42,383 bases of DNA from a bacterium (lineage in GTDB: Bacteria > Margulisbacteria > Marinamargulisbacteria > JABGVJ01). Below, piece after piece: positions 3,542 through 41,737 of this stretch. Every line of letters begins with the position of its first letter. The stretch's first letter is position 1. Where the stretch lies: assembly GCA_018646105.1 (NCBI GenBank), contig JABGVJ010000063.1, positions 1-42,383 on the forward strand, in the 5' to 3' direction. The notes beneath the pieces were generated by a model that saw only the letters and a list, made by a program, of their open reading frames with translations, was not told the DNA's origin and did no database searches. The position numbers and the translations under genes were made by a program.

Positions 3542-4273
3542 ATGAAATCTATAAAAAAAATATATTTATACTTTTTTCTCGTTTTTCTAAGTTTGTGCAT
3601 ATGGAGCGGGACTGTAAGCGCGTACAACATAGCTTATAATGTAGAAACACCAGAAAAAGTTATAGCTTTGACTTTTGATGACGGTCCTAATAAATTTTAC
3701 ACCGAAAAAATACTTGCGATTTTAGACCGAGAAAAAGTAAAAGCGACTTTTTTTTTAGTGGGGAAAAATATTAAAGAACACCCTCAAATTGCGCGAAAAA
3801 TTAAAACAAAAGGACATGAATTAGGGAATCATTCTTTAAACCATTTTGATTATTCTTTGATGAACAATCAAGAAATAATTAAAGATGTATTACTTTCCCA
3901 ACATGTTTTCTTTAAATATCTTGATGAATTCCCTTTATTTTTCAGACCGCCTTATGGCAAAATAAAAGCGGCTAATCACGAATTATTCAAAAACTATTTT
4001 TACAAAATCGTAAAATGGAATATTGATCCTAAAGACTGGAAGCCTGGCACGAACAAACAAATAATTAGCAATATTATTTTTAAACATTTGAAACCAGGTT
4101 CTATTATTATCATGCATGATAATAATATGAATACGCTCAAAGCTTTGCCGCAAATTATTAATAAAGCCCGAAAAAGAGGGTTTCAGTTTGTAACTGTATC
4201 TGATTTAATCTCCAAAGAAGCGACTAATACAGCTTTAGGTTATAACCCTCAAAAAACTAAAAATTATTATTAA
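3542..4273 (+). CDS. Secreted polysaccharide deacetylase (NodB/CE4 family)
   Basis: Removes acetyl groups from amino sugars of a cell-wall or extracellular polysaccharide; the exact substrate cannot be read from sequence. Residues 1-27 form a signal peptide or signal anchor (basic start, hydrophobic core, AxA-like end). The NodB motifs are complete: TFDDGP with the metal and base Asp residues, the metal-binding HxxxH in GNHSLNHF, RPPYG, the DPKDW segment and IIIMHD with the late His. At 243 residues it is a minimal single-domain enzyme. No good Shine-Dalgarno sequence precedes the ATG. The next gene starts 12 nt after the stop, so the two may be co-transcribed although their functions seem unrelated. 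Confidence 0.92.
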   Translation: MKSIKKIYLYFFLVFLSLCIWSGTVSAYNIAYNVETPEKVIALTFDDGPNKFYTEKILAILDREKVKATFFLVGKNIKEHPQIARKIKTKGHELGNHSLNHFDYSLMNNQEIIKDVLLSQHVFFKYLDEFPLFFRPPYGKIKAANHELFKNYFYKIVKWNIDPKDWKPGTNKQIISNIIFKHLKPGSIIIMHDNNMNTLKALPQIINKARKRGFQFVTVSDLISKEATNTALGYNPQKTKNYY

Positions 4274-11476: not shown

Positions 11477-12307
11477 ATGGATACAACTAAACTTGCCATA
11501 TTCAAAGGAAAAAAAATAAGAAGAGTTATTCATAATAATGAATGGTGGTTTTCGATAATAGATATTATAGAAGCTCTCACTGAAAGTAACCGTCCTAGAA
11601 AATATTGGAATGATATTAAAAGAAAGTTGACTGATGAGGGGTATAATGAAGTGTCCGATAATATCGGACAGTTGAAAATGATAGCTACAGATGGAAAGTT
11701 AAGAGAAACTGATGCTGCTAATACTAAAACTATTTTTCGAATTATTCAGTCTATCCCCTCTCCTAAAGCAGAACCTTTTAAACGCTGGTTAGCAAAAGTT
11801 GGTTATGAGCGGGTTCAAGAAATTGAGGATCCTGAATTAGCAACAAAAAGAACCAGAATGCTTTATAAACTTAAGGGCTATAGCGATGACTGGATAGAAA
11901 AACGCATGCGGGGCATTGCTATTCGTGAAGAATTAACTGATGAATGGAAAAACCGTGGTGCACAAGAACAAAAAGATTATGAAATATTAACCTCAGAAAT
12001 ATCTAAGGCTACTTTTGGTGTAACTCCAAGTGATTATAAAAACCTAAAAGGTTTAAAACGAGAGAATCTACGAGATCATATGGATGATTTTGAACTTATT
12101 TTTACGATGCTTGGGGAAAGATCTACAACAGAAATACATCGCACAGAAAATTCTAAAGGAATAAAAAAATTAAAATCAGATACTCAAGCTGGCGGTACGA
12201 TTGCGGGAAATGCTAGAAAACAACTTGAAAAACGTTTAGGTAGATCAATTGTTAATCCTAATAATTATTTAGATAAAGGTCAGGACAATAGTAAGTTATT
12301 GAAGTAA
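11477..12307 (+). CDS. BRO-N domain phage antirepressor-like protein
   Basis: Residues 1-110 match the BRO N-terminal DNA-binding domain of phage antirepressors: NNEWWFSIIDIIEAL, RPRKYWNDIKRKL, IGQLKMIATDGK and FRIIQSIPSPKAEPFKRWLA. The C-terminal part (NRGAQEQKDYEILTSEISKATFG) is the conserved extension of standalone chromosomal BRO/DinD-like proteins. Function in such solitary copies is not established. TGTCCGAT-AAT-ATCGGACA (11652-11670), an 8-bp-arm palindrome, lies within codons for SDNIGQ. The stop is 4 bp before tRNA-Arg, and a possible 8-bp direct repeat brackets the gene. No phage genes adjoin it, so it looks like a single-gene insertion. Confidence 0.85.
   Translation: MDTTKLAIFKGKKIRRVIHNNEWWFSIIDIIEALTESNRPRKYWNDIKRKLTDEGYNEVSDNIGQLKMIATDGKLRETDAANTKTIFRIIQSIPSPKAEPFKRWLAKVGYERVQEIEDPELATKRTRMLYKLKGYSDDWIEKRMRGIAIREELTDEWKNRGAQEQKDYEILTSEISKATFGVTPSDYKNLKGLKRENLRDHMDDFELIFTMLGERSTTEIHRTENSKGIKKLKSDTQAGGTIAGNARKQLEKRLGRSIVNPNNYLDKGQDNSKLLK
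11652..11670. repeat. Intragenic palindrome in the BRO-N gene
   Basis: TGTCCGAT (11652-11659) and ATCGGACA (11663-11670) are perfect inverted arms around AAT. It sits immediately before the codons for the conserved segment IGQLKMIATDGK. Comparable palindromes occur in the ORF6N and RhuM genes of this window. Confidence 0.8.
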
Positions 12308-18147: not shown

Positions 18148-18176
18148 TTGACCTTGTGTTTAAAATATATTATATT
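18148..18176 (+). promoter_or_regulatory. Sigma70-type promoter of the ORF6N gene
   Basis: TTGACC (18148-18153) and TATATT (18171-18176) are separated by exactly 17 bp. Transcription should begin near 18183, just ahead of the ribosome site AAGGAGG at 18189-18195. A TTG inside the -35 box could be mistaken for a start codon but lies upstream of the predicted transcript. Confidence 0.75.
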
Positions 18177-18188
18177 AAGCGTTAAAAT

Positions 18189-18195
18189 AAGGAGG
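18189..18195 (+). promoter_or_regulatory. Strong ribosome-binding site before a non-ATG start
   Basis: AAGGAGG is a full anti-16S match. Nine bases later the in-frame codon is ATA (18205-18207). No ATG, GTG or TTG follows in frame before ATG at 18271, which is already inside the conserved domain. Confidence 0.7.
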
Positions 18196-18204
18196 ATTAT
18201 AAAA

Positions 18205-18714
18205 ATAAAAGACCTAATACCCACAGAAACAATTGTTAGTAAAATACTGGTGATCAGAGAACAAAAAGTCATGCTGGATAGAGACTTGGCTGGGCTTTAT
18301 GGAGTTGAAACTAAAGTGTTAAATCAAGCTGTGAAACGAAACTTAAAACGTTTCCCTCTTGAGTTTATGTTTCAATTAAATCAAGCAGAAAAAAGAGAAC
18401 TGGTCACAAATTGTGACCGGTTCCAAATTTTAAAGCACTCTTCATCTTTACCCTATGCTTTTACTGAACATGGTATCGCCATGTTATCTAGTATCTTAAA
18501 CAGTGATAAAGCCATTAATATAAATATTTTGATTATTAAGGCTTTTATTGCATTACGCAAAGCCATGCTTAATTATGGAAAATTAGCGGAAAAAGTTGAT
18601 GTTTTAGAAAAAAAATATGATACGCAGTTTAATGTTATTTTTGAGGCTATTGAACATATGTTTAAATTAGAAGCTAATCCTAAAAAAATTGGGTTTGTAA
18701 GAGATAAAAACTAA
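18205..18714 (+). CDS. ORF6N domain protein, probable ATA start
   Basis: ORF6N proteins are KilA-N/antirepressor-related DNA-binding proteins of phages and mobile elements. The conserved pattern is KDLIPTETIVSKILVIR, QKVMLDRDLAGLYGVETKVL, NLKRFPLEFMFQL and LPYAFTEHGIAMLSSILNSDKA, followed by a short coiled coil and an IGF ending. Promoter and RBS fix translation at 18205 with ATA as initiation codon, so either initiation is non-canonical or an ATG has mutated. A palindrome (18398-18422) lies in the codons for LVTNCDRF. The last four codons fall inside a 57-bp repeat shared with the nicO 3' end, and a 13-bp direct repeat brackets the gene. It looks like a small mobile unit. Confidence 0.82.
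   Translation: MKDLIPTETIVSKILVIREQKVMLDRDLAGLYGVETKVLNQAVKRNLKRFPLEFMFQLNQAEKRELVTNCDRFQILKHSSSLPYAFTEHGIAMLSSILNSDKAININILIIKAFIALRKAMLNYGKLAEKVDVLEKKYDTQFNVIFEAIEHMFKLEANPKKIGFVRDKN
18398..18422. repeat. Intragenic palindrome in the ORF6N gene
   Basis: AACTGGTCACAA (18398-18409) and TTGTGACCGGTT (18411-18422) are 12-bp arms around one A, perfect except for one T/G pair. It lies between the conserved FMFQL and LPYAFTEHG blocks of the protein. Confidence 0.85.
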
Positions 18715-40732: not shown

Positions 40733-41737
40733 CTAGGCATTCCTTTTGTTTATTAAATTCACAATTAATTTAATTATAATCTCCTTTTCTACTGACTTAC
40801 TTTCAGCAGTCATAAGACAAATCGCGACCAAAGCATTATCCTCGATCCTTTTTTTACCATTTAAAGAATAGAGATAATGATTCTTTTCTAAAAACCAAAT
40901 AAAAAGAAAGGCGCCAATTCTTTTATTACCATCTGTGAAAGAATGATTTTTGATTATAAAATATAGTAAATGAGCCGCTTTTTCCTCAACACTAGGATAT
41001 AAATCTCGGCTCTCAAATGTTTGATAAATATTATATAAAGAACCTTTAAAAGATTTGTCTTTTTCTCGGCCAAAAAGAATTTTTTCGGCATCCCCAAATT
41101 TATTTTTCAACATTTTAATAGCGGCTAACGCCTCATTATAAGTAATCTTGAAAATTTCAAACGTATTTGTATTTTCGATTTCTAATGCTTGATGATCATA
41201 TTTATCTAGTAAATCTAAGGCATATGTATAATCCGTAATAATTTCTAGTAAGCCAATGGCTTCATCTTTTTTTAATTGCTTATTTTTTACCACATTGGAA
41301 AGTAGGCCTAACGTATTTTCCAGTTCCCGGATTCTTTTTGTCTGTGTTTTTAGGCGCGTTTCATTGATAGCATATCCCTGGATTAAATAATTTTTGAGAA
41401 TCTTGTTAGCCCAAATTCGAAATTGAGTTCCGCTTTTAGACCTGACACGGTAACCCACAGAAATAATAACGTCTAAATTGTAATATTTAGTTTCATAGTT
41501 TTTCCCATCTGCGGCAGTATGTCGGAATTTCCGACATACTGCTACTTCCTCTAATTCTGCTTCTTTAAATATATTATTAACATGTTCCGTAATAGTAGTG
41601 CGTGCTTTCTTAAAAAGACTGGCCATTTGTTCTTGTGTTAGCCAAACCGTCTCGTTTGTCAAATTAACCTCTAATTGGAATTGCCCATCTTCCGCTTGAT
41701 AGATAACTATTTGCTTATCTTTATCCTGTATGTTCAT
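40733..41737 (-). CDS. RhuM-family DNA-binding domain fused to a Fic/Doc domain
   Basis: Residues 1-140 match RhuM proteins: NETVWLTQEQMASLFKKARTTITEHV, RHTAADGKNYETKYYNLDVIISVGYRVRS, TQFRIWANKILKNYL. The C-terminal 170 residues carry the Doc-type Fic motif HSFTDGNKRIGAFLF near residue 265, so nucleotidyl or phosphate transfer to a protein target is likely. The combination is common in solitary accessory genes; whether it acts as a toxin is unknown and no antitoxin gene is next to it. AAGGAA precedes the ATG. A 29-bp palindrome lies in codons for AVCRKFRHTA. Exact 18-bp direct repeats surround the gene, indicating recent insertion at the tsaB 3' end. Confidence 0.88.
   Translation of the reverse strand: MNIQDKDKQIVIYQAEDGQFQLEVNLTNETVWLTQEQMASLFKKARTTITEHVNNIFKEAELEEVAVCRKFRHTAADGKNYETKYYNLDVIISVGYRVRSKSGTQFRIWANKILKNYLIQGYAINETRLKTQTKRIRELENTLGLLSNVVKNKQLKKDEAIGLLEIITDYTYALDLLDKYDHQALEIENTNTFEIFKITYNEALAAIKMLKNKFGDAEKILFGREKDKSFKGSLYNIYQTFESRDLYPSVEEKAAHLLYFIIKNHSFTDGNKRIGAFLFIWFLEKNHYLYSLNGKKRIEDNALVAICLMTAESKSVEKEIIIKLIVNLINKRNA
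41514..41542. repeat. Intragenic palindrome in the RhuM-Fic gene
   Basis: GCAGTATGTCGGAA (41514-41527) and TTCCGACATACTGC (41529-41542) are perfect 14-bp arms around one T. It lies just before the codons for the conserved AADGKNY segment, the same relation to conserved sequence as the palindrome in the BRO-N gene. Confidence 0.9.

Follow-up and report, generated by a model that had tools for sequence, protein, structure and literature searches.

Intragenic auxiliary operators such as lac O2 are placed in a coding region and can act together with an upstream operator, and Rickettsia-type palindromic elements are in-frame palindromes in coding sequence, being mobile repeats found at varied places. 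Whereas lac O2 lies within a regulated gene, the palindromes described here lie in the codons of the regulator's own DNA-binding domain; unlike the Rickettsia-type elements, they occupy a fixed place and their sequence follows the helix of the encoded protein. Initiators with sites inside their own gene are known already: dimers of lambda O bind to inverted repeats that lie in the coding sequence of gene O itself (ori-lambda) (PMC5043065), and the N-terminal DNA-binding domain of pSK41 Rep (RepA_N) recognizes Rep boxes located midway along its gene, where the site codes for a linker (PMC5703833). However, lambda O is a replication initiator with four repeats, and pSK41 Rep has an origin function, four boxes and another family membership, whereas the genes studied here mostly carry one palindrome, encode antirepressor-type regulators and show coupling of helix and site across families. 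Inverted repeats are also kept in protein-coding sequence of Nematomorpha mitochondrial genes (PMC6649704), but these are up to 284 bp long, lie in respiratory-chain genes and are unconnected to DNA binding by the product. Modules of the Bro network swap domains (PMC10111431); ORF6N, Bro-N and KilA-N genes are members of this network by Pfam domain, although neither an embedded operator nor a recognition code was found described there. In searches of an open-access collection, which most subscription papers lie outside, we found no account of embedded operators or of a helix-site code in RhuM, ORF6N, Bro-N or KilA-N.

Three genes of these families, each with a palindrome inside its coding sequence, are present in the window, that is, in the whole 42-kb stretch of DNA analyzed (Table 1). 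Their domain matches exceed the Pfam cut-offs: 91.6 vs 33.7 bits for RhuM in the RhuM-Fic gene, where only the N-terminal part of the profile is matched, 108.9 vs 27.8 bits for ORF6N and 53.8 vs 25.6 bits for Bro-N. The initial annotation had described perfect 14-bp arms in RhuM-Fic, and these are indeed present, around a 1-nt centre, forming the longest short-loop palindrome of the window; the 12-bp arms with one T/G mismatch described for ORF6N were also found (11 of 12 pairs), while the Bro-N palindrome is where it had been placed but has arms of 9 bp rather than 8 bp. The window contains 18 palindromes whose perfect arms reach 8 bp or more; ranked among these by their perfect parts, the three sites come first, ninth and 17th, so that the ORF6N and Bro-N palindromes taken alone are weak evidence. 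The RhuM palindrome does not show REP/RPE-like dispersal, occurring once in its assembly (at three or fewer mismatches), and a second RhuM gene in the same genome (L002) has the palindrome AACTATCCGGAATTTCCGGATAGTT. Outside the regulator genes analyzed, a perfect palindrome with 13-bp arms, TATTATTATCATGCATGATAATAATA, lies at 4102-4127 inside the reading frame 3542-4273.

Table 1. Genes, palindromes and recognition helices in the window, and a separate palindrome family in the related genome G073
Feature	Position	Strand	Sequence or domain	Encoded part	Core class
RhuM-Fic gene	40733..41737	minus	N-terminal part of PF13310, and PF02661	334 aa	
RhuM-Fic palindrome	41514..41542		GCAGTATGTCGGAA-T-TTCCGACATACTGC	AVCRKFRHTA (aa 66-75), first wing strand	CGG
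RhuM-Fic recognition helix	41567..41602	minus	RTTITEHVNNIF	aa 46-57	E of TITEH goes with CGG
ORF6N gene	18148..18714	plus	PF10543	start codon uncertain (TTG or later)	
ORF6N palindrome	18398..18422		AACTGGTCACAA-A-TTGTGACCGGTT	within ELVTNCDRF, between wing strands	TCAC
ORF6N recognition helix	18310..18342	plus	TKVLNQAVKRN		Q of LNQ goes with TCAC
Bro-N gene	11477..12307	plus	PF02498	276 aa	
Bro-N palindrome	11652..11670		TGTCCGATA-A-TATCGGACA	within EVSDNIGQL	CCGA
Bro-N recognition-helix region	11591..11629	plus	RPRKYWNDIKRKL		YWNDIK goes with CCGA
Palindrome family in G073	C3:344527, 371632, 365319, 441657, 90684; C1:143150		GAAGGCGA..TTCGAA..TCGCCTTC		

Homologs of RhuM, ORF6N and Bro-N were collected from 74 genomes of the same phylum and from IMG/VR with queries that mostly exclude the palindrome; for the main set the queries came from conserved stretches outside it, scans with the whole RhuM-Fic protein having yielded almost nothing. 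Most homologs have a palindrome at the equivalent place behind the helix-turn-helix (HTH), with arm sequences that are many and varied. Among the unique segments scored (113 for RhuM, 74 for ORF6N and 60 for Bro-N), a palindrome score of at least 9 at this place was reached by 61%, 69% and 53%, respectively, vs 2.3%, 0.5% and 0.9% in synonymous recodings. Other windows in these genes reached this score in 0.2%, 2.7% and 0%, and the ORF6N value among these may be raised by second palindromes where cassettes are in tandem. The median score was 9-10 at the palindrome place and five in both the recodings and the other windows. In a scan of IMG/VR that left four bases per arm free, 176 of 256 were complementary, where 95 had been expected and none of 1000 shuffles exceeded 122. 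Selection on the DNA, as the initial annotation had proposed, is thus confirmed: the arms covary across homologs, the place staying palindromic while its sequence changes, with scores far above those of synonymous recodings, and homologs keep palindromes there far more often than elsewhere. Dyad symmetry with arms that remain complementary despite sequence change is also what an operator of a dimeric HTH protein would show.

The genome-wide statistics refer to the related genome G073 (798 kb) and not to the window's own genome: of 33 palindromes with a score of at least 11, eight are inside genes, or gene fragments, of the ORF6N, RhuM or KilA-N families. The same structural place is occupied in RhuM, ORF6N, Bro-N and KilA-N genes of bacteria, phages and one archaeal virus, whose RhuM-like gene (L380) has the palindrome AACGATTCCACTATTAGTGGAATCGTT. 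Many RhuM genes have an imperfect palindrome, and the RhuM genes Wolbachia WO gp8 and Gordonia Sidious gp32 have no such palindrome. In some ORF6N genes the palindromic cassette is present twice in tandem, at a spacing of about 27 bp (L069, L090 and G072:C116:23102-23145); in L069 and L090 the cores of the two palindromes differ.

The sequence of the half-site, 3-6 bp from the dyad, is coupled to residues of the HTH recognition helix; the codons for these residues lie outside the palindrome, 16-31 codons upstream. Across 86 RhuM genes, the core (3-5 bp) shares an excess mutual information of 1.0-1.4 bits (z 17-27) with five helix positions, whereas the other 34 positions reach at most 0.5 bits, though some of them vary more; in Bro-N, z is 12-19 at three positions. 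The RhuM classes are GCA with S[TV]..[RK]H, TCC with PAISKH, CGG with E in T[IV][NT]EH, AAG with QN...H and GAG with DNI..H. For ORF6N, the core is determined by the residue at position -9 of the helix in 62 of 62 genes, counting classes with at least three members: all 33 genes with Q have TCAC, all 12 with K have TTCC, all seven with E have TCGC and all ten with R have TGCC or TGCA. All three window genes obey the pairing rule. The initial annotation had called their palindromes unrelated in sequence, which holds and is explained by each of them following the recognition helix of its own protein.

As a control for relatedness, pairs less than 45% identical outside the helix were compared. 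Those with the same helix key shared the core in 18 of 18 (ORF6N), 11 of 11 (RhuM) and 35 of 37 (Bro-N) cases, vs 19 of 228, 129 of 716 and 122 of 924, respectively, for pairs with different keys. When the core was predicted from the helix using only sequences less than 60% identical elsewhere, the prediction was correct for 78% of ORF6N, 89% of RhuM and 82% of Bro-N, vs 29%, 19% and 25% with shuffled helix keys. One helix residue goes with one core in two reading frames (Q with TCAC in 26 and seven ORF6N genes; E with CGG in about 13 and four RhuM genes), which indicates that the coupling is to the DNA and not to the encoded wing amino acids. The near-twins L220 and L254, 98% identical downstream, differ in the helix (SISSISRH vs GVPAISKH), in the core (TTGCAA vs TTTCC) and in little else. 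The coupling is equal on both arms, the half-site following the recognition-helix residues on each, as would be expected for a symmetric HTH dimer.

In AlphaFold2 models (mean pLDDT 82-83), the coupled residues are on the second HTH helix and the part encoded by the palindrome is in the wing, as the first wing strand (residues 68-74) in RhuM and between the wing strands in ORF6N. This stretch seemingly tolerates amino-acid change, which may explain how it can double as an operator. No relative of the DNA-binding domains with a solved structure turned up in sequence searches of the PDB; Foldseek gave weak matches, of RhuM to a TFIIE-type winged helix (E 8e-3) and of ORF6N to MerR/Ski-like folds (E at least 0.4).

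Because the palindrome sequence tracks the DNA-reading helix, the gene appears to contain the site of its own protein. In all likelihood each protein recognizes its own palindrome, and very probably each regulator gene contains the operator of its own product, bound as a dimer, both judged from the sequences. The N-terminal winged HTH domain of RhuM, ORF6N, Bro-N and probably KilA-N would bind a palindrome of 25-30 bp, located roughly 170-280 bp downstream of the gene start in the wing codons just behind the HTH; the recognition helix of each subunit would read the bases 3-6 from the dyad, and a second conserved block at 9-11 would probably be contacted by the wing or flanking parts. When the helix residues change, the palindrome would change along with them, forcing the encoded wing residues to change. 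The purpose of the embedded site is reasonably likely to be negative autoregulation, with repression of the own gene by a roadblock or, where upstream operators are present, by looping. It may also keep regulator and operator together as these modules, which swap domains, are moved from one promoter or C-terminal domain to another.

The regions upstream of ORF6N genes contain further palindromes of the same type, about 0.4 per kb (some 12 in 28 kb, being 14 sites minus those of L070 and L150, which lie inside a neighboring ORF6N gene), vs 0.028 per kb in G073. Of these approximately 12 sites, five have both halves in the class of the gene itself, and the others resemble other classes. In L302 the internal and the upstream site share the unusual outer arms AAAG..CTTT, the upstream one standing directly before a promoter-like TTGACT box; in L063 the upstream site is in front of a Bacteroidota-type promoter-like sequence; upstream copies were also found at L064 and L088, and two at L145. 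Together with the coupling of helix and half-site, these copies strongly support an operator for the gene's own product, one of three options offered by the initial annotation, as the probable role of the palindrome. Second palindrome copies were not found above control in the neighborhood of RhuM and Bro-N genes.

Two or three ORF6N-type palindromes precede the ORF6N genes at L304:1040-1165, L073:1000-1110 and L145:1740-1830, those of L304 and L073 being of mixed classes, which suggests cross-regulation between paralogs. At L146:1501-1570, two extended ORF6N-type palindromes (TCAC and TTCC) stand in tandem in noncoding DNA beside another repeat; the stretch analyzed there contains no ORF6N gene.

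Another purpose for a self-binding site would be recombination or copy sensing: instead of regulating transcription, the bound protein would guide superinfection exclusion, gene conversion or the swapping of domains. The domain swapping of Bro-network genes, some of which are linked to nucleases, the lack of a promoter copy in RhuM and Bro-N and the tandem cassettes of ORF6N speak for it; however, the window proteins have no nuclease domain by Pfam and the upstream copies in ORF6N favor regulation, so that we regard it as unlikely. The second option of the initial annotation, a recombination or insertion site, gained no positive support.

It is quite improbable that the site serves as an element of a replication origin. 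For lambda O and the RepA_N initiators, the bound inverted repeats or boxes lie in their own genes, behind the DNA-binding domain, and the palindromes likewise lie inside the own gene behind that domain; but there is nearly always one palindrome per gene (two in a few ORF6N genes) and not a repeat array, a genome can carry up to ten chromosomal copies of the genes, and the upstream copies sit in promoter regions.

The remaining option of the initial annotation was an mRNA hairpin, which would control translation or termination, the coupling to the helix being a by-product. The arms do covary like RNA stems, and the P4 immunity RNA sits in a Bro-network gene. Against it, pairing of the arms is about 100% at 2-6 bp from the dyad, dips around 7-8 bp, is high at 9-11 bp and reaches background by 12-14 bp; the inner values are biased upward, the segments having been aligned on the best palindrome, and the dip and the second block are unaffected by this. 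The profile is common to RhuM, ORF6N and Bro-N despite their differing codon phase (the dyad is usually at codon position 3, 1 and 2, respectively). Overall in the three families, G-U mismatches are about as frequent as A-C mismatches or rarer, and this lack of a G-U excess indicates a DNA signal rather than an RNA hairpin. The centres of 1 nt also disfavor a hairpin; an Rfam search of the window found two tRNAs only and no RNA family matching the palindromes. Since a hairpin does not predict coupling to recognition-helix residues either, we consider it very improbable. Hardly credible are functionless palindromes arising by template switching between imperfect arms, which has been published as homogenizing the arms of inverted repeats, or by insertion of mobile palindromes, of which in-frame examples are present in G073, as the palindromes have a fixed place in four families, three to four codon phases and one pairing profile, with a core set by a helix encoded elsewhere.

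Self-operators may extend to a design of the whole superfamily, which we consider somewhat probable: the wing codons would be the operator, a module would be self-regulated wherever it is recombined and may recognize other copies of its own gene, and the helix-to-half-site code would predict targets. Each protein of these large and poorly understood families, whose members are mostly called antirepressors or unnamed, thereby gets a predicted DNA target from its own gene. With hundreds of protein-site pairs, this would be a natural recognition code for an HTH fold and, if true, would predict the targets of thousands of uncharacterized ORF6N, RhuM, Bro-N and KilA-N proteins. It would also show a way for an operator to stay linked to a domain-swapping regulator and explain why a coding stretch is constrained, at the level of DNA rather than of protein, a point of importance in the annotation of phage and satellite switches. 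Recognition of copies of the own gene, if true, may give superinfection immunity or copy counting.

KilA-N is the fourth family with an embedded palindrome, which has an even dyad around GAATTC (L397-L418; L419-L487). Coupling of helix and core is moderate in this small and biased set. Sites of the KilA-N type are often noncoding, between genes on viral or phage contigs, and many of them join two different half-sites; in 47 of 49 viral contigs with such noncoding sites no KilA-N gene was detected, and these contigs may be fragments. Searches for pRha (PF09669) yielded nothing above threshold, and the sub-threshold matches coincided mostly with ORF6N genes. A Rha-family gene of Streptococcus phage MissB2 (L378:515-1141) has the palindrome TTGGATTTAAAATCCAA, with 8-bp arms, soon after the HTH, and pRha may be a fifth family. 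An additional, intergenic palindrome with 14-bp arms, TATATTTACCTTTAATAAAGGTAAATATA, was found in Methanobrevibacter smithii tailed virus 1 (L380:5087-5115). Finally, G073 contains a separate family of palindromes with variants inside long reading frames (loci L153-L192; Table 1). The host frames look like housekeeping genes, and the palindromes look like RPE-like in-frame insertions.
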